Positions 7,292 through 15,531 of a stretch of 64,000 nt of DNA are shown here, piece after piece; the stretch's first letter is position 1; the number at the start of each line of letters is the position of its first letter. Source of the stretch: Acidibrevibacterium fodinaquatile (GTDB lineage Bacteria > Pseudomonadota > Alphaproteobacteria > Acetobacterales > Acetobacteraceae). A model generated the notes under the pieces. That model was not told the origin of the DNA. It ran no database searches and worked only from the letters and a program-made list of their open reading frames with translations. The stretch lies in contig NZ_CP029176.1 of the NCBI RefSeq assembly GCF_003352165.1, positions 1,364,001 to 1,428,000 on the forward strand. Reading direction: 5' to 3'. The translations under genes and the position numbers were made by a program.

Positions 7292-8929
7292 ATGGGTGAG
7301 GAAGATATCGCGCGTGAGAGAATGGATTTCGATGTCGTCATCGTCGGCGGCGGCCCCGCCGGATTGGCGGCGGCGATCCGCCTCAAGCAGCTTGCCCCCG
7401 AGGCGGCGATCTGTCTGGTCGAAAAAGGCAGCGAAATCGGCGCCCATATCCTCTCCGGCGCGGTGATCGAGCCGCGAGCGCTCGCCGAGCTGATCCCAGA
7501 CTGGCAGGCAGAGGGCGCGCCGCTCGTGACCCCAGCCGGCGATGACCGGTTTCTGTTTCTGACCGCTCGCCGTGCGCTCCGTCTGCCGACCCCGCCGCAA
7601 ATGCACAATAGTGGCAATTTCGTCGCGAGCCTCGGCGATCTCTGCCGCTGGCTCGCCGCCCGCGCCGAGGCGCTCGGGGTCGAGATCTATCCCGGCTTTC
7701 CCGCCGCCGCCCTGATCGAGGAGGAGGGGCGCATCGCCGGGGTCATCACCGGTGACATGGGTGTAACCAAATCCGGCGAAAAAGGGCCGAATTATCAGCC
7801 GGGGATGGAGCTGCGCGCGGCCTACACCGTGCTCGCCGAGGGTTGCCGCGGCTCGCTCAGCAAACAGGCGATCGCGCGTTTCGGCCTTAGCGAGGGGGTC
7901 GATCCGCCGACCTTCGCGATCGGGGTCAAGGAATTATGGGAGGTGCCGGCGGAAAACCATCGCCCCGGCGAGATCACCCACACCATCGGCTGGCCCCTTG
8001 ACCGAAGCAGCTATGGCGGCTCGTTCCTCTATCATTTCGGCGCCAATCTCATCTCCTATGGCTTCGTCGTCGGGCTCGATTATCGCAATCCCTGGCTCTC
8101 GCCGTTCGAGGAGATGCAGCGGCTCAAAACCCATCCGGCGATGGTCGGGCATTTCGCCGGCGGGCGGCGGATCAGCTATGGCGCGCGCGCACTGGTCGAG
8201 GGCGGGCTGCAATCCCTGCCCAAGCTCGTTTTCCCCGGCGGGATCCTGATCGGCGACAGTGCCGGCTTCCTCAACGTGCCCAAGATCAAGGGCACGCATA
8301 TGGCGATGAAATCCGGCATGGTGGCGGCCGAGGCGCTGGCGGAGGCGCTGGCCGGCGACCGCCCGGCGGCGCTCGCGCGCTACCCCGAGCGGCTCCGCGC
8401 GAGCTGGCTTTGGGAAGAATTGCGGGGAGCCCGCAATATCCGCCCCGGTTTCGCCCGCTTCGGCCTGTGGGGCGGGCTCGTCAACGCGGCGCTCGATACC
8501 TACGTGCTGCGCGGCCGGGCGCCATGGACGCTGCACCACCCCCACCCCGATCACGCAACGCTGCTTCCCGCCGATCAGGCGCCGCGCATCGCCTATCCGA
8601 AGCCGGACGGAAAGCTCACCTTCGACCGCCTCGCTTCGGTTTTCATCAGCAACACCAATCACGAGGAAGACCAGCCGGCGCATCTCAAGCTTCGTGAGCC
8701 AGAGCGTTGGCAAGCCGTCAATTGGCAGCGCTTTGCTGCACCCGAGAGCCGCTATTGCCCGGCCGGCGTCTATGAAGCGGTCGGGGTCGAGGAGGGCGCG
8801 CCACGCCTTCAGATCAACGCCCAAAACTGCGTCCACTGCAAGACCTGCGACATCAAGGATCCCACCCAGAACATCGACTGGTGCACGCCAGAGGGCGGCG
8901 GCGGCCCGAATTATCCGAGCGGGATGTAG
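7292..8929 (+). CDS. Electron transfer flavoprotein-ubiquinone oxidoreductase
   Basis: ETF-QO, 545 residues, a membrane-associated FAD and 4Fe-4S enzyme that passes electrons from ETF (beta-oxidation, amino-acid catabolism) to ubiquinone. The FAD site [17 protein letters not shown] lies near residue 14, and [19 protein letters not shown] is near residue 325. The C-terminal cluster domain has [19 protein letters not shown] near residue 515. Length is normal for the family. An AGGA box precedes the ATG. An acyl-CoA dehydrogenase-like gene at the far end of the window would be a plausible upstream donor system, but the two genes are not linked. Confidence 0.95.
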
Positions 8930-9008: not shown

Positions 9009-10517
9009 ATGCCGCGCGTCCCGCTCTCCCTCTCCCGCGCGCGCCGCCGCGGCCGGTCGCCGGTTTTCATCGCGCCATTGCTGGGGATGCTCCTCGCCGC
9101 GGCGCCGGTTTGGGCGCAATCGATACCGACCACCGGGCCCGCCGCCGCGAGCGGCACGGCGCCGGTGGCGGGCGATGCCGGGCCGGATTTCTTCACCGGC
9201 CTCTTCTCGCCCTCACGCAATAATCTGCTGCTCGACATGGATGGCCTGCGCACCTCGCTCGGCAATGTCGGCATTTCGTTCGGCCTCCAGGAAACCAGCG
9301 AGGTGCTCGGCAACGTCACCGGCGGCGTCCATACCGGCGCCGATTATGACGGCATGACCGAGATGAGCGTCGGGCTCGATACGCAAAAAGCGTTCGGCTG
9401 GGTCGGCGGGATTTTCAATGTCAGCGCGCTGCAGATTCACGGCCGCAATCTCAGCACCGACAATCTCGATGTCCTCCAACAGGCGAGCGGGATTGAGGCG
9501 GACCGTTCGACCCGCCTTTGGGAAATGTGGTACCAGCAATCGTTTTTCGAAGGCGCGACGGATATCAAGATCGGCCAGCAAAGCATCGATCAGGAATTCA
9601 TGGTCAGCCAATATTCCTCAACGGTGTTCATGAATATGATGATGGGCTGGCCGATGCTGCCGTCCGCTGACATGTATGCCGGCGGGCCGGCCTACCCGCT
9701 CGCCTCGCTCGGCGTGCGGCTGCGTGCCCAGCCGACGCATGCGATCACCGTGCTCGCTGGCGTGTTCGACGACAATCCGGCCGGCGGCTCGTTCTATAAC
9801 GACTCCCAGGTGCGGGGCGCCGAGGCTTGGGGCGGCGCGTTCAATCTCAATACCGGCGCGCTCTGGATCGCCGAGCTGCAATACGCCGTCAATCAGCCAG
9901 CCCTCGGGGACATGGTTTCGCCCGACCAGTCCCCCGGCCTACCCGGCACCTATAAGATCGGCTTCTGGTATGATTCCGGCTCCTTCCCCGATCAGGAATA
10001 CGACACGCTCGGCGTCCCGCTCGCAAGCCCGGCGAGCAACGGCGATCCCTTGATGCGTCGCGGCAATGAGAGCCTCTACGCGCTTGCCGATCAGATGGTC
10101 TGGCGATCGAGCCCGGAAAGCCCGCGTTCGGTGGGCGTTTTCGCGCGCGCCATGGTGGCGCCGCCCGATCGCAACCAGATTTCCGCGAGCTACGATGGCG
10201 GTCTCGTCGTCAAAGACCCGCTGCCCGGGCGCGACAACGACAATTTCGGCCTCGGTTTCGGCGTCGCAAAGGTCAGCTCGGCGCTGGCCAATTATGACAA
10301 CGAGGTTGCCTATTACACCAATCGCTACGATCCCGCCCAAGGCATCGAGACCTTCCTCGAAGCGACGTATCAATATCAAATCGCGCCGTGGTGGCTGGTG
10401 CAGCCCGATTTCCAGTATTTCTTCAACCCCAGCGGCGGCATCCCGAACCCGCTCGAGCCCACGCGGCGCATCGCCAATGAAGCGGTGTTCGGCCTGCGCA
10501 CCGTGATCACGTTCTGA
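9009..10517 (+). CDS. OprB-type carbohydrate-selective porin
   Basis: A 502-residue outer-membrane protein. It has a basic N-region, a hydrophobic stretch and the AAAPVWAQ cleavage region near residue 38. The mature barrel has OprB traits: NNLLLDMDGLRTSLGNVGIS near the start, SALQIHGRNLS, a TDIKIGQQSIDQEFM strand, and a C-terminal FGLRTVITF. OprB porins admit monosaccharides and are abundant in acetic acid bacteria. It is monocistronic and convergent with the Hyf-like operon, 6 bp from its last gene. The substrate cannot be inferred. Confidence 0.85.
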   Translation: MPRVPLSLSRARRRGRSPVFIAPLLGMLLAAAPVWAQSIPTTGPAAASGTAPVAGDAGPDFFTGLFSPSRNNLLLDMDGLRTSLGNVGISFGLQETSEVLGNVTGGVHTGADYDGMTEMSVGLDTQKAFGWVGGIFNVSALQIHGRNLSTDNLDVLQQASGIEADRSTRLWEMWYQQSFFEGATDIKIGQQSIDQEFMVSQYSSTVFMNMMMGWPMLPSADMYAGGPAYPLASLGVRLRAQPTHAITVLAGVFDDNPAGGSFYNDSQVRGAEAWGGAFNLNTGALWIAELQYAVNQPALGDMVSPDQSPGLPGTYKIGFWYDSGSFPDQEYDTLGVPLASPASNGDPLMRRGNESLYALADQMVWRSSPESPRSVGVFARAMVAPPDRNQISASYDGGLVVKDPLPGRDNDNFGLGFGVAKVSSALANYDNEVAYYTNRYDPAQGIETFLEATYQYQIAPWWLVQPDFQYFFNPSGGIPNPLEPTRRIANEAVFGLRTVITF

Positions 10518-10523
10518 GCCGGC

Positions 10524-11972
10524 TCAGAGATCGGCGCCCGCGGCGCCGGCGCCGAAAGAGGCGCGGATCAGCCGCCAATCGCCGCGCTCGGCGCCGGAAA
10601 ACGCGGCAATCAGTGCCGCCTCGTTTCGCCAGAACGGATCGCAGGGGAAAGCCTCGGCGATCAACCCGCCGCGGATCGCAAGAAAATGCCAGATTTCACC
10701 CGCCGGCCCCTCGGTGACGCCGAGCCCTTCGCCGCTTTCATGCGAGAGCGCAACGCTGAGCGCACCCGTGGGCAGTGTCGCGAGGAGGTGGCGGACAAGC
10801 GTGACGCTGAGCCCGATTTCGGCGACCCTTAGCGCCGCGCGCGCCAAGGCATCGCCGGTAAGGCGAGTCGGGGCCACAAAATCGAGCCGCTCATAGGGCG
10901 GATAACCCGGGCTGCGCCGCGCGTCCTCGCTCTGGCCGCCGGCGCGTGCGACCAATCCGACCCCGGCGCCGCGCACCACGCCGCGCCCGGCGAGCGCCGC
11001 CTCGGGCAGCGAAAACCGCGCCCGCCAGGCCTCGATCCCGGCGAGGGCGGCAAGCAGCGTCTCGCTCCGCGCGGGATCGAGGTCGGCGGCGACCCCACCC
11101 GGCACGACGACATCCATCATCAACCGATGCCCGAACGCCACGGCGAGCGCGGCGCGGAGTGTGGCGAGCGCATCGCACGTCGCCGCCGCCCGCCGCATCG
11201 CACCGGCCTCGCGGAGGAGATCGGCGAGGTCTGAGAGATGGGTTCCGATCCGCTCGAGTTCCGCCATGACGGCGCGGAGAGCGGTGGCGCGGGGCGGAAT
11301 GGTGAGCCCGAGCGCGGCCTCGGCGGCGGCGGCGAAGGCGATGCTATGCGCAACCGTCGCCTCCCCCGCCAGCCGTGCCGCAAAACGCGCCGCGACGCGC
11401 GCCGGCTTGCCGCGCATCAAGCTGATCTGGCCTTTATGGCCATAGCCGGCGCGCCGCGCTGCCGCGGCGATGCGGGTGCCGTCGAGACGAAAACGCCAAT
11501 GCTCGAGCGGGGTGAAGGGCGGCCCGGCGGGCCCGTTCGGCCATTGCTCGCCGGCGGCCTCGGCGAAAAATTCCGGCCAGTCGGCCGCCATCGGCGCCGG
11601 CCCGGGGGCTGGCGCGAGCGGGATGGAGAGCGGCCAGACCCCGTGATCGAGCCGCTTTTCCGTGCCTGCCACGCTCTCCGCCTTCTGTCCCCAGAGATCG
11701 GCGATGGCGGCCTCGAACCCCGCCGCCTCCGGCCAGCGCCGGCTGAGCGTCGCATAGCGCCCGTCCGTCAGGGGGGCGGCGACCGGCATGATCGTGCCGT
11801 CGCCGCAACGAAACACCGCGCGCACGCCGTCCGCCTCGGCCCAGAGCGCGAGCAGCGCGAGATCGCCCGCTCCTGCCGCGAGAGACCGCCAGCCAGCGGC
11901 ATCCAAGCGCCGCCACGGCCAGGGGCGGAGTGCGGCATCGCGCGGCGCCGCGTCCAGAAGGGCGCGGCTCAT
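10524..11972 (-). CDS. HyfG/EhrL-like large subunit without Ni-binding cysteines
   Basis: The 482-residue protein resembles the NuoC-NuoD-type large subunit of group 4 hydrogenase-like complexes. A NuoC-like region (ATLSRRWPEAAGFEAAIADL near residue 73, LDHGVWPL near 107) precedes a NuoD-like region (GYGHKGQISLMRGKP, then AVMAELERIGTHLSDLADLL and FGHRLMMDVVVPGGVAADL). The N-terminal CxxC nickel motif is replaced by ARLAGEATVAHS near residue 197, and the C-terminal DPCxxC motif is absent (the protein ends ASFGAGAAGADL). Loss of both motifs is known in Ehr complexes, so hydrogenase activity is not expected. Its ATG overlaps the preceding stop by 4 nt. Confidence 0.7.
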   Translation of the reverse strand: MSRALLDAAPRDAALRPWPWRRLDAAGWRSLAAGAGDLALLALWAEADGVRAVFRCGDGTIMPVAAPLTDGRYATLSRRWPEAAGFEAAIADLWGQKAESVAGTEKRLDHGVWPLSIPLAPAPGPAPMAADWPEFFAEAAGEQWPNGPAGPPFTPLEHWRFRLDGTRIAAAARRAGYGHKGQISLMRGKPARVAARFAARLAGEATVAHSIAFAAAAEAALGLTIPPRATALRAVMAELERIGTHLSDLADLLREAGAMRRAAATCDALATLRAALAVAFGHRLMMDVVVPGGVAADLDPARSETLLAALAGIEAWRARFSLPEAALAGRGVVRGAGVGLVARAGGQSEDARRSPGYPPYERLDFVAPTRLTGDALARAALRVAEIGLSVTLVRHLLATLPTGALSVALSHESGEGLGVTEGPAGEIWHFLAIRGGLIAEAFPCDPFWRNEAALIAAFSGAERGDWRLIRASFGAGAAGADL

Positions 11973-12847
11973 ATCAGCGGCGCTTGCGCGAGCAGGGCGG
12001 CGAGCGCCGCGCAGATTGTCGCGACCGTGAGCGCGGGGGAAAGCAGCCGCGACGCCGGCGGCCGGGCCGGGCGGAGCCAGGCGAGCAGCCCGGCGGCCAC
12101 CGCCATTTTCACGAGCCAGAGGAGGAGCCCGATCCCGGCGGCGAGGAGACCCTGGCCTTCGCCGGCGATGCCGAAAGGCACCAGGAGGGCCGCGACCAGG
12201 CTCAGCGCCCCGAGTTGGGTGAGGGCGGTGGTGGCGAGCGCCATCGTCCGTGCCCGGCCGCCGCTCTCCGCCGCCGCCGCCGTCGGCGCCGCCCGCGCGA
12301 TCGCGGCGAGCGCGATGGCGGCGAGCAGGCGCGGCGCGAGTGGCGACGCGACACCGCCCGGTGTTGCGATGGCGTTCAGCATGACGCCGCCGCCAAGTTG
12401 CGCCAACGCCCAAAAGGTGAGGAAAAGCGCGGGGCTGGCTGCGCAGAAAAACCCGAGGATCCGCCCCGCCGCGATCCCTCCCGCCATCGTCCCCGCCGCC
12501 ATAAGCGAAAGCAGCGGCAGGATCGCCGCCAACGCGAGCAGCGCGACCACCAGCGGCAAGGAGGCGAAGGGCGCGGTCGCGAGGGCGGTGGTGAAGGTCG
12601 GGATGAGGGCGGCGGCGAGGATGGCGGCGGCGAGGCCGGCGGCGATGGCAGCATCAGCAAACGCGGAAACCCCGGAGAGACGCACCTGCTCGGCCCGCCA
12701 GAGCGCCCACCAGAGCCGCCAGATCGCGAGCGGCGCCGGCATTGGCGCGCGGTCACGAAGCGCCGCCGCCATCGCCAGAAGCCAGGCGAAACCGGGTGCC
12801 GCGGCCAGCATCAGCGCGAGATTGAGCGCCGTCGCGATCAGCCGCAT
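11969..12847 (-). CDS. HyfC/NuoH-like membrane subunit, divergent
   Basis: A 292-residue polytopic membrane protein, with about seven to eight hydrophobic segments. Its order and the early loop APMPAPLAIWRLWWALWRAE resemble the HyfC/HycD branch of NuoH. The conserved acidic loop of that family (a PVDNPxTHLELTM-type segment followed by EYSG) is reduced to PTAAAAESGGRARTMAL, so the usual quinone and proton pathway residues are missing. The gene overlaps the stop of the preceding HyfB-like gene by 10 nt and the next gene by 4 nt, so the three are surely co-translated. Confidence 0.6.
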   Translation of the reverse strand: MRLIATALNLALMLAAAPGFAWLLAMAAALRDRAPMPAPLAIWRLWWALWRAEQVRLSGVSAFADAAIAAGLAAAILAAALIPTFTTALATAPFASLPLVVALLALAAILPLLSLMAAGTMAGGIAAGRILGFFCAASPALFLTFWALAQLGGGVMLNAIATPGGVASPLAPRLLAAIALAAIARAAPTAAAAESGGRARTMALATTALTQLGALSLVAALLVPFGIAGEGQGLLAAGIGLLLWLVKMAVAAGLLAWLRPARPPASRLLSPALTVATICAALAALLAQAPLI

Positions 12848-14577
12848 GGCGGCGCCCGCCAGGCGTCCCGCGCCGCCCGCCATGCCGCGCGCGGCCGCCG
12901 CAGCCGGCGCGCCAGTATCACCAGGCCGAGTTTGGCGGCGGCGCGCAGTTCGGCGCCGAACGCGCCGGGGGCGATCGTCGTCACCGGGTCACCGAACGGG
13001 AGCCAGCCCGGCAACGGCCCATACCCTTCCTCCCAGACCCGCGCGACGAGCCGCGCGCCCCGGCCGGTGGCTGCCCAAAGCAGGGCCGTGAGGAAAAGCA
13101 GCAACGCCGCGCAGGCGGGAGCGGCGATCATCGAGGTCGGCGTTGCGGCATCGCCGGCAACCAAGGTCGGCATCGCCGAGGCGATCAGCCGCGCGGCAAT
13201 CCCCGGAACCAAGCCGAACAGCGCGAGCGCGGCCGCGAGCACGGCGAGCGATGACCGCTCCCGCCCGGCGAGATCGGCCGCCGCCGAGGCTCGCGGGCTT
13301 CGCGGCGGGCCGAGAAAGCCCAAGCCGAAGAGCCGGAGCGCGGCGAAGCCGCCGAGCGCGAAAAGAAGCCCGGCAAGCGCGACCAGGGCGGCGAGAAAGA
13401 CGCTGCCAAGCCCGCTCGCGGGCAGGCGGAGCAGCGCCGTCATCGCCAGTGGTCCGCCGAGAAGCCCGGGGCCAAACGGCAGCGCCACGCTCAGCGCGAG
13501 GCCGGCCAGCGCCGCCGCGCGTGGCATCGGCGCGAGGAGGCCGCCGAGCCGCGCAAGCTGCCGGCTGCCGGCCTCACGCGTCACCGCGCGCGCGAGCAGC
13601 AGCAGCAGCGGCCCCGCGAGTGCGCTCAGCAGCGCGAGCGCGAGAAAGGCGGCGACCGCATCCCGCCCCGGCGCCGCGAGATCGGCGCGCCGCGCCCAAA
13701 TGGCGATGCCGAGCGCGAACAGGCTCTCGCCGAGCAGCAGCGGCACGAAAGCGGCGACGATGACGGCGATATCTTCGGCCCATGCCGCAGCAGCGGCGGC
13801 GCTCAGCGCACCGGCAAGCCCAAGCCCGAGCGCCAGCGCCGCGATCGGGCCGGCGGCGCCGAGCGCGAGAAGATCACCAAGGAAACGCGCCGCGAGATAG
13901 GCCACCGTCGGCGCCAGGGCGGCGGCGAGCAGAGCGCCGTTTTCCGCCGTCGCCAGAACACGCGGACGAAAGAGGGGGGCGCCAAGAAGCCCGGCGCCGA
14001 GCACAACGAGCCCGGCGACCGAGCCGCTCGCCGCCGCCGGCAAGGCCAGCGCGCGCATGGCGACGAAGGCGGGGTTGGGCGTGCCATCGGGAAGGGGGGG
14101 CGCGAGGGCGGCGAGCACGAGCAACCACGCGAGCCACGCCGCCATCGGGAAAAAGCGCGACGTTGCGAGGAGGCGCGTCGCGGCGCCGAGCGCGAGCGCA
14201 AGACCGGCGAGCAGGGCATAAGCGTCGCCGGCGAGGATGACGTTCAACAGCCCGGCGAACAGCAGCCCCGCCGCTGCCGGCCGCGCCGGCGCCGCGACCC
14301 GCAGCACTGTGGCGAAGGGGAGGCAGAGCGCGAGCAGAAACAGCCGGGAAAGCCCGTCGAGCCGCAGCAGCGGGTGAAATCCCGGCAGGCCGAACGGCAG
14401 CGCCAGGGCGCCGGCCGGCTCTCCGAGCAGGAGAGAGAGAAGCGCGACCACGGCGCCGGCGAGCGGAACCAGCCAGAGCCGCGCTGCCAGCGGCGCGCGC
14501 AGCCGGGGCAGCGCCGCCAGCCCCGATCCCGCGATGAGCGGCGCCATGAGGAGCGTGAAAAAACCCAGCGCCAGCAT
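12838..14577 (-). CDS. HyfB/MrpD-like membrane subunit, divergent
   Basis: A 579-residue, very hydrophobic Ala/Leu-rich protein with about 14 transmembrane segments, matching the HyfB/NuoL/MrpD antiporter-like family in length and position. The pumping residues of the family seem absent. The segment GDAYALLAGLALALGAATRL stands where TM5 normally has a glutamate, and VLGAGLLGAPLFRPRVLA stands where TM7 has the KAG lysine. It starts 24 bp after nudC with a GGAGG upstream. An alternative is a diverged transporter, but the following NuoH-like and NuoCD-like genes support the Hyf assignment. Confidence 0.6.
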   Translation of the reverse strand: MLALGFFTLLMAPLIAGSGLAALPRLRAPLAARLWLVPLAGAVVALLSLLLGEPAGALALPFGLPGFHPLLRLDGLSRLFLLALCLPFATVLRVAAPARPAAAGLLFAGLLNVILAGDAYALLAGLALALGAATRLLATSRFFPMAAWLAWLLVLAALAPPLPDGTPNPAFVAMRALALPAAASGSVAGLVVLGAGLLGAPLFRPRVLATAENGALLAAALAPTVAYLAARFLGDLLALGAAGPIAALALGLGLAGALSAAAAAAWAEDIAVIVAAFVPLLLGESLFALGIAIWARRADLAAPGRDAVAAFLALALLSALAGPLLLLLARAVTREAGSRQLARLGGLLAPMPRAAALAGLALSVALPFGPGLLGGPLAMTALLRLPASGLGSVFLAALVALAGLLFALGGFAALRLFGLGFLGPPRSPRASAAADLAGRERSSLAVLAAALALFGLVPGIAARLIASAMPTLVAGDAATPTSMIAAPACAALLLFLTALLWAATGRGARLVARVWEEGYGPLPGWLPFGDPVTTIAPGAFGAELRAAAKLGLVILARRLRRPRAAWRAARDAWRAPPCG

Positions 14578-14601: not shown

Positions 14602-15531
14602 TCAGCCGCTTTCCAGCCAGTCCTCGATTAGCCGCCGTGCGATACTGTCGCCGCGTGGCAGGCGAAAGCCGAGCGCCTTGTGGTTGCGGATGTCGGCGCG
14701 GGAGAACCACCGTGCATCGCTCAGCTCAGCGGGGTCGAGCACGATCTCGGTGCTTTGCGCCGCGGCGTAAAAGCCGAGCATGAGGGAGGCGGGAAACGGC
14801 CAGGGCTGGCTGGAATGATAGGTCACGGCGCCGACGCGCACGCCGGTTTCCTCGAACACCTCGCGCGCCACCGCTTCCTCGAGGCTTTCGCCGGGCTCGA
14901 CGAAGCCGGCGAGCGTCGAATACATCTCGGGCACCGGAAAGCGCGGCGAATGGCCGAGCAACGCGGCATCGCCCTGCACCACCAGCATGATCACGGCGGG
15001 ATCGGTGCGGGGGAAATGCGGCGTCTCGCAGCGCGTGCAGACGAGGGTGTTGCCACCGCTTCGCGCCTCGCACGCCGCACCGCAGACGCCACAAAAACGA
15101 TGCCGCGCGCGCCAGTGGAGAAGGCCGCGGGCATGGGCGAGGATCGCCGCCTCGGCCTCGGGTAACGCGCCGGCGGCGGCGCGGAGATCGGCAAAGCGCG
15201 CAGTTTCGCCGAACGCAGGCGCGTCGAAGGCGGGCGGCGCTTCGGCGGCGCCGCAATCGATCGCGAAGACCGGCCGCTCCTGCCACAGGCCGAGAAACGC
15301 CCAGGGTGCGTCAACGCGCCAGGGATCGGCCTCGGCGCCAGCAAGAAAAACCCCGCGCACCGCCTCCGCCTCGCCGGCGAGCAGGCTCTGGCCGCGCCAG
15401 ACCGGAACGAAGAGACTGTCGGGCGATTCGCGCGCGGCGGCGAGGAACGCGGCATCCTCCCGCCGCGCGCTCGCGCGGTCGAGCGGGCTTGCGCTGTAGG
15501 GGTTGGGGCGACGGGCGCGGATCGGGATCAC
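14602..15531 (-). CDS. nudC: NAD+ diphosphatase / NADH pyrophosphatase NudC
   Basis: A Nudix hydrolase of 309 residues that cleaves NAD(H) to NMN(H) and AMP and, in studied bacteria, removes NAD caps from RNA. It has a four-Cys zinc ribbon (CGVCGAAC and CTRCETPHFPRTDP), a Nudix box GFVEPGESLEEAVAREVFEE and the NudC-specific SQPWPFPASLM. The start codon is GTG at 15531, with TGAGGAAAC upstream. It is the first gene of the run that continues into the Hyf-like genes. Confidence 0.93.
   Translation of the reverse strand: MIPIRARRPNPYSASPLDRASARREDAAFLAAARESPDSLFVPVWRGQSLLAGEAEAVRGVFLAGAEADPWRVDAPWAFLGLWQERPVFAIDCGAAEAPPAFDAPAFGETARFADLRAAAGALPEAEAAILAHARGLLHWRARHRFCGVCGAACEARSGGNTLVCTRCETPHFPRTDPAVIMLVVQGDAALLGHSPRFPVPEMYSTLAGFVEPGESLEEAVAREVFEETGVRVGAVTYHSSQPWPFPASLMLGFYAAAQSTEIVLDPAELSDARWFSRADIRNHKALGFRLPRGDSIARRLIEDWLESG

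Follow-up and report, generated by a model that had tools for sequence, protein, structure and literature searches.

Why should a bacterium maintain three overlapping, uninterrupted genes for a complex I-like membrane complex when so many of the residues expected of such a complex have gone? The question is raised by an operon of hyfB-, hyfC- and hyfG-like genes (B, C and G below) in a 64,000-nucleotide stretch of the Acidibrevibacterium fodinaquatile chromosome (assembly GCF_003352165.1, contig NZ_CP029176.1, positions 1,364,001 to 1,428,000), which we call the window. It corresponds to G000:C1:1364001-1428000 in a genome of 4.04 Mb (G000; L-numbers denote loci). We consider it probable that the operon encodes three of the four subunits of an eroded energy-converting-hydrogenase-related (Ehr) complex, that the fourth, the small subunit HyfI, comes from a gene that has moved about 376 kb away, and that together they would constitute a non-pumping Fe-S module. 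Alignments and profile searches show that HyfE and HyfF have been lost along with the residues of the catalytic loop, the E-channel and the antiporter path, that there is no nickel site and that the four cysteines of HyfI are kept.

Descent from a complete Ehr and loss of residues

The resemblance of the three overlapping minus-strand frames to HyfB, HyfC and HyfG, on which the original prediction was built, is real by frames, homology and models alike. G matches Complex1_49kDa (1.6e-15) and NiFeSe_Hases (6.8e-07) in Pfam and NuoD models in NCBIfam (6.1e-31, below those models' cut-offs), while B matches hydrogenase 4 subunit B in NCBIfam (2.4e-10, far under the model cut-off) and nothing in Pfam, and C has no match in either. 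When hhalign profiles built from the sequences of six genus members only (G000, G001, G002, G003, G004 and G005) were compared with independent profiles of complete proteins, B aligned with HyfB plus HycC (99.9%, 1.1e-33) and C with HyfC plus HycD (99.7%, 8.3e-26). The AlphaFold2 models of B and C (predicted local distance difference test, pLDDT, 85.7 and 90.2), which are not independent of homology since their input alignments also held complete homologues, find their best matches in the Protein Data Bank (PDB) in E. coli HycC (7z0t_C, template-modelling score 0.73) and HycD (7z0s_D, 0.78). Homology, models and conservation together rule out chance open reading frames (ORFs) of GC-rich DNA; B, C and G are open in all six genus members, with the hyfG of G005 running off a contig end.

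The residue losses were judged against complete six-gene Ehr loci (16, 25 or about 60 loci), with residue roles named after those sections of PMC9474812 that were available. Among columns that are charged and reach a conservation of at least 95% in the complete loci (60 rows each for B and G and 59 rows for C; cells beyond the span of a truncated row uncounted, and a complete HyfC copy of G001 left out of the genus rows), 11 of the 18 in B are lost in all six genus rows, and eight of these are lost in all eight other eroded rows too. C keeps 14 of 150 genus cells over 25 columns, 20 of which are lost in every genus row, and G keeps 180 of 290 cells over 50 columns. In HycC numbering, B has A for E135, L for H222, P for K239, L for H328, S for H332, G for K336 and G for E391. 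The predicted lack of the glutamate of transmembrane helix 5 (TM5) and of the TM7 lysine is thereby confirmed, with A127 and L198 in their places and G375 at the position of HycC E391; since E. coli HycC is also without the TM7 lysine (L208), this last loss is not diagnostic. C has, in HycD numbering, I for E130, S for E138 and A for E189, and the acidic TM5-6 loop (E199-E206), correctly reported as lost, is deleted relative to the complete loci. In HycE numbering, G has G for H188, P for E193 and A for R478 and keeps H284, R395 and E437: the catalytic-loop glutamate and histidine have become P155 and G150, the canopy arginine is A424, and the core residues H245, R343 and E385 are retained. 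No CxxC nickel-ligand pair occurs in the 482 residues of G, which had also been seen from the sequence; G thus lacks the two pairs of a group 4 [NiFe] hydrogenase, a lack that Ehr and NuoD ordinarily show. Complete Ehr has an Asp in line with one in the NuoD of G000, a residue with a coupling role in complex I; G has E255 in its place, and Asp stands at this position in none of the six genus rows and none of 14 other eroded rows. The residue maps were also inspected for the missing motifs at shifted positions, and none was found. The His of GYxHKG in G was rejected as a counterpart of the complex I quinone-site His, because the HycE alignment places the relevant loop upstream, in the beta1-beta2 loop, whose residues are lost.

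These losses do not count equally. In the available sections of PMC9474812, E. coli HycD mutants in E138 and in E199/E201/E203 lost 98-99% of H2 production, whereas two of the eight HycC mutants named there, E391A and D354A, were alone in showing an effect (45%), so that less weight attaches to the losses in B than to those in C and G. Two further features of B are its C-terminal loop (W-EGYGP-P-WLPFGDP; residues 515-537, window 12967-13035), which is strongly conserved in the genus, and a Glu at the position of the HycC ND3-loop Cys in all six genus rows.

Relatives of the operon point to its source. In a survey of 124 loci scored with iterated profiles, complete loci reach mostly about 590-680 bits for B, 416-480 for C, about 270-345 for E and 480-620 for F, an Acidocella locus (L123) being complete with weaker scores. 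Eroded loci reach 29-415 bits for B, where it is detected, and 67-293 for C; E and F score no more than 186 in them, if they are present at all. Outside the genus, diverged E/F-like frames separate C from G in several eroded loci, as one frame of 611 residues in L111; no gene lies between C and G in the window's genus. Duplicate loci were dropped before all trees, and short-contig or near-duplicate loci also from those of the large subunit. In a large-subunit tree of 60 rows (58 Ehr-type, rooted with HycE and NuoD), a single clade (Shimodaira-Hasegawa-like approximate likelihood ratio test, SH-aLRT, 96) unites 20 eroded rows with two partly eroded ones (L041, L062); it spans many genera and is nested among complete Acetobacteraceae Ehr. 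A 90-row tree without outgroup gives the same picture (support 92), L042 apart; the placement of the long branches L056 and L060 is uncertain. L042 (G016, L042:7938-9979), in which large and small subunit genes stand alone, was discarded as an eroded locus because a HyfC-like gene lies on another contig of G016, which makes it in all probability a split cluster; L102, counted among the 20 eroded rows, may be another. Tree and gene content show descent of the eroded operon from a six-gene Ehr, and among the loci surveyed in this old Acetobacteraceae lineage it is the one reduced furthest. A third, divergent cluster in G005 (L058:1966-9398) has the order C-E-F-G-I-B, with its G on a very long branch.

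The relocated small subunit and the absent pump subunits

HyfE, HyfF and HyfI had all been described as missing. This stands for HyfE and HyfF, which are absent from the locus, but not for HyfI, a homologue of which is encoded 365 kb before the window (Table 1). An Oxidored_q6 scan of the six genus genomes matched NuoB in all six, an intact-Ehr gene in five, a longer protein (frames of 270-323 residues) in five, a gene of the third cluster of G005 and a fragment in G004. Every genus genome holds one small-subunit gene in addition to these, which lies apart from the operon in G000, G001, G002, G003 and G005 and directly behind hyfG in G004; in G005 the operon ends at a contig end inside hyfG, so that what lies downstream is unseen. 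The six proteins form one clade (SH-aLRT 98, in trees of 104 and 51 rows), and in the 104-row tree the five separated ones group together (support 93) and the relocated copies fall with the operon copy of G004 rather than with the small subunit of intact Ehr. The trees and the co-occurrence of the genes suggest that HyfI belongs with G.

Cysteines 15, 18, 79 and 108 of the HyfI of G000 align with C48, C51, C115 and C145 of HycG, presumably the cluster ligands, and the four-cysteine Fe-S small subunit of Ehr is thus represented by a gene outside the window. All four are present in 106 of 111 small-subunit rows (duplicates of loci fetched twice included), the other five being contig-end cuts (2), fragments at L070 (2) and a weak second match (1). 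The two L070 frames (G004, L070:4621-5626) resemble halves of hyfI, have a short HyfB-like stretch beside them and are probably a decayed copy. In nine further genomes searched for hyfI, eight of which have an eroded G, a non-Nuo hyfI was found elsewhere in the genome and none at the eroded cluster in G006, G013 and G027, and the copies of G013 (L170) and G027 (L166) keep the four cysteines. Since hyfI is retained in all 14 eroded-locus genomes checked, it tends to persist after leaving the operon, in at least three lineages. Thus, not every hallmark residue has been lost, as the original prediction had it, and its proposal of a non-redox task is weakened by an Fe-S subunit that keeps its cysteines.

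No such relocation was found for the pump subunits. In the six genus genomes, the matches to a HyfF profile (seven eroded or partly eroded F-like proteins) are confined to F and B proteins of intact Ehr, to G005's third cluster and, weakly, to one Nuo protein; a HyfE profile (seven HyfE proteins) finds E proteins of intact Ehr, that same cluster of G005 and one protein of G004 at E 0.53, and nothing else. G002 gives no match to either even at E <= 1. We therefore rejected the idea that HyfE and HyfF have moved like HyfI; the profiles include very diverged relics, and a still more diverged relic could escape them. The earlier suggestion of subunits encoded elsewhere accordingly holds for HyfI and not for HyfE and HyfF, and the locus is without the HyfE- and HyfF-type membrane subunits of Ehr.

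The window's chromosome does contain a second, complete six-gene Ehr (L027:7026-14143, G000:C1 about 3.292-3.299 Mb). Its six proteins are, one by one, 86-94% identical to those of a complete B-C-E-F-G-I set on plasmid pHY1 of Methylovirgula sp. HY1, whereas other genus members (L030, L049, L050, L053) have a complete Ehr that is 57-77% identical to this pHY1/G000 type; a recent transfer is suggested. On pHY1 (L006:1-13902), the Ehr lies between F0F1 ATP synthase genes, AtpI/AtpZ-like ones included, and a gene for a formaldehyde-activating enzyme.

Selection on the genes and competing explanations

The ratio of nonsynonymous to synonymous substitution rates (dN/dS; Nei-Gojobori with codon bootstrap, rough values since codon bias is ignored) between G000 and G005 is 0.31 for B, 0.46 for C, 0.26 for G (332 codons, the G of G005 being truncated) and 0.19 for I, with upper 95% bounds of 0.40, 0.64, 0.36 and 0.32. 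Between G000 and G002 it is 0.30, 0.40, 0.22 and 0.19. The eroded genes are therefore under purifying selection, as originally supposed, and their dN/dS is not near 1. Four genomes that also hold the genus-type complete Ehr allow comparison of eroded with intact genes in six pairs: the mean ratio of dN is 2.52 for B, 3.59 for C, 1.23 for G and 1.43 for I, and that of dN/dS is 2.37, 3.13, 1.48 and 1.86. The membrane arm is thus clearly relaxed and the peripheral pair of G and I much less so.

In the complex that we propose, B and C would form a two-protein membrane anchor like HycC and HycD, on which G would sit on C and hold I with one [4Fe-4S] cluster. Such a complex should be unable to make H2 or to pump protons, because nickel, the acid and His of the beta1-beta2 loop, the canopy arginine, the E-channel and the antiporter path are all lacking. 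What remains would be a membrane-anchored Fe-S module, most likely a scaffold for another respiratory component or a one-electron relay. We make no firm choice of its role: a structural scaffold is the first candidate, though a tentative one, a redox-sensing scaffold seems less likely, a one-electron relay less likely still, and some other role least likely. A scaffold or redox-sensing role is favoured since the fold, much of the core of G and the cluster cysteines are kept and the parts for protonation and coupling are lost. More broadly, and with considerable reserve, we suggest that the Acetobacteraceae may hold an old lineage of complex I-superfamily pseudo-complexes acting as a non-pumping, non-catalytic membrane redox sensor or scaffold. 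It would derive from a nickel-free Ehr by shedding the catalytic loop, the E-channel and the antiporter path and, in the extreme case of the window's genus, two pump subunits, and would keep its [4Fe-4S]-type small subunit even after the gene had left the operon.

Several observations weigh against this proposal. Pairs with the distant G004, whose dS is often near or above 0.8, reach dN/dS values of 0.67 for B, 0.55 for C, 0.44 for G and 0.44 for I, and dN/dS of G and I also lies above that of intact Ehr. The relaxation of B and C is compatible with slow decay, and the residue losses of B are by themselves uninformative, given that most E. coli HycC channel mutants in the available text of PMC9474812 kept H2 production. 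As to the small subunit, Ser replaces the first Cys in the hyfI product of G006 (L167), which in the 51-row tree groups with L038, L041 and L102 rather than with the other relocated copies; the four cysteines are visible in 12 of the 14 genomes, the copy of G003 being cut by a contig end and that of G006 having three; and of the charged invariants of I, Cys apart, the genus has retained few (14 of 45 cells in five rows). The small-subunit tree, short and weakly resolved, does not recover the whole eroded clade. Finally, the complete Ehr of G000 could lend HyfE and HyfF.

It is possible that the genes are relics drifting slowly toward loss, which look intact for lack of time. Such a course would fit the raised dN of B and C (2.5 and 3.6 times the values of intact Ehr, compared pair by pair), the dN/dS of 0.67 for B in pairs with G004 and the loss of HyfE and HyfF, and the hyfI-like fragments of G004 indicate that such genes do decay in the genus. 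However, each of the four genes has a dN/dS far under 1 at dS of 0.24-1.17, the frames stay open across the six genus members, members of the eroded clade are spread over many genera, and hyfI genes that have left the operon retain their cysteines, G006 being a partial exception; we thus regard pseudogenisation as improbable. An active oxidoreductase of remodelled chemistry, for example one in which electrons pass uncoupled between the Fe-S cluster and a substrate in the old active-site cavity, appears unlikely too. Although G and I are the least relaxed subunits, G keeping many core residues and I its cysteines, the Glu and His of the catalytic loop and the canopy Arg have not been kept, the Asp at E255 is found in no eroded row, and the operon genes include no electron-input subunit. 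A third scenario, in which B, C and G borrow HyfE and HyfF, and perhaps HyfI, from the complete Ehr to form a hybrid complex, would draw on a full six-gene set in the same chromosome. It is hard to reconcile with G002, which has B, C, G and I and no complete Ehr: its three Proton_antipo_M genes lie side by side as in a Nuo set, and its only two large-subunit matches are one eroded and one NuoD-like. Since G002 keeps the eroded genes regardless, the operon can persist without borrowing. The complete Ehr belongs to another branch, with which the relocated small subunits do not group, and the channel residues of B and C are gone regardless, which leaves a hybrid very improbable. The presence of this complete Ehr thus leaves the original finding standing.

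Gene neighbourhood and comparison with known systems

The start of C is more likely the ATG at 12847 than position 12883 and gives a 10-base overlap with B, and the start of G overlaps the stop of C as ATGA; a 629-residue ORF from 12413 is a mere upstream extension. The nudC gene lies on the same strand 24 bases upstream of B, and a close match occupies this place in all six genus members (L028-L033). By this adjacency nudC may be part of the system, as a candidate only. The frames neighbouring the operon, among them nudC, OprB porin and ETF-ubiquinone oxidoreductase genes, include neither a NuoEFG module nor a series of antiporter subunits, and a separate Nuo cluster is present elsewhere in the genome.

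Table 1. Operon genes, their neighbours and the separate hyfI gene (window coordinates unless another contig or locus is named).
Feature	Position	Strand or orientation	Basis or remark
B, HyfB/HycC-like antiporter-type membrane protein, 579 aa	12838..14577	-	NCBIfam, hhalign, model, residue map
C, HyfC/HycD/NuoH-like membrane protein, 304 aa	11969..12883	-	hhalign, model, residue map
G, HyfG/HycE/NuoD-like large subunit, 482 aa	10524..11972	-	Pfam, NCBIfam, residue map
nudC (NAD+ diphosphatase)	14602..15531	-	NF001299, 8e-70, above cut-off
ETF-ubiquinone oxidoreductase gene	7292-8929	convergent with operon	
OprB-family porin gene	9009-10517	convergent with operon	
HyfI homologue, 133 aa, four cluster Cys	G000:C1:998477-998878 (= L065:8477-8878)		outside window

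Two other gene neighbours recur in the survey. An aldo/keto reductase match is found in 19 of the 124 loci, complete or eroded (L038:2709-3530, L057, L059, L060, L061 and others), in several directly before hyfB; a functional link was rejected, as no such gene lies beside the window's operon. Hopanoid genes are another case: HpnD lies next to L111, a protein 72% identical lies next to L139, and Shc- and HpnG-like genes, named by eye, lie next to L127, but HpnD matches also appear in eroded L063 and in complete L106, L107 and L145, so that there is no specific association.

How does the system relate to what is known? Six-gene HyfBCEFGI Ehr complexes are its direct ancestors and share the order B-C-(E-F)-G-(I), a large subunit homologous to that of group 4 hydrogenases but without nickel ligands, and a small subunit with four cysteines. 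Unlike them, the operon is without HyfE and HyfF, its HyfI gene has been relocated, and the E-channel and antiporter residues and the catalytic loop of G are lost. Nickel-less Ehr complexes are already known, their function being described as unknown in the sections available of PMC10284858 and PMC6349859, and so is the layout with two membrane subunits of E. coli formate hydrogenlyase-1 (FHL), whose core is HycC-HycD-HycE-HycG according to the part of PMC9474812 available. The window system is thus a worn-down variant of a known family and no new family. Judged by gene content, it has converged on this FHL layout, without nickel or a proton path, and the models of B and C find their best structural matches in FHL. 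It differs from FHL in having no CxxC, no HycB-, HycF- or FdhF-like gene in the operon and nothing in C that corresponds to E138 or to the loop E199-E206 of HycD; of these, complete Ehr itself has Glu at E203 and E206 but not at E199 and E201. With complex I (NuoB-NuoCD-NuoH-NuoL/M/N) the system shares superfamily, fold and absence of nickel, and it differs in having no N-module genes beside the operon and no pump residues.

In the literature searched, outside which most subscription papers fall, we found neither an Ehr lineage lacking coupling residues and pump subunits with a relocated Fe-S subunit nor a non-pumping, non-catalytic sensor or scaffold role for the complex I superfamily. Relatives of complex I are usually read as pumps, and a graded loss of pump and active site with an Fe-S subunit still under selection offers a natural dissection of their non-pumping parts. 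For annotation, the case warns that a "missing" subunit can sit elsewhere in the genome and that such proteins are easily misnamed as hydrogenase or NADH dehydrogenase subunits. A parallel is offered by the deranged bc1 complex and the COX1-like proteins of Acetobacteraceae (PMC10715153, in the parts available, where "hydrogenase" appears once, for type 1, and Ehr is not treated). There too, cofactor ligands were lost, the proteins were retained and a structural role was proposed; the enzymes are different, and in the window system it is the pump that has been lost and the cluster cysteines that have been kept. Given this parallel, retained non-catalytic respiratory complexes may be a wider theme in the Acetobacteraceae.

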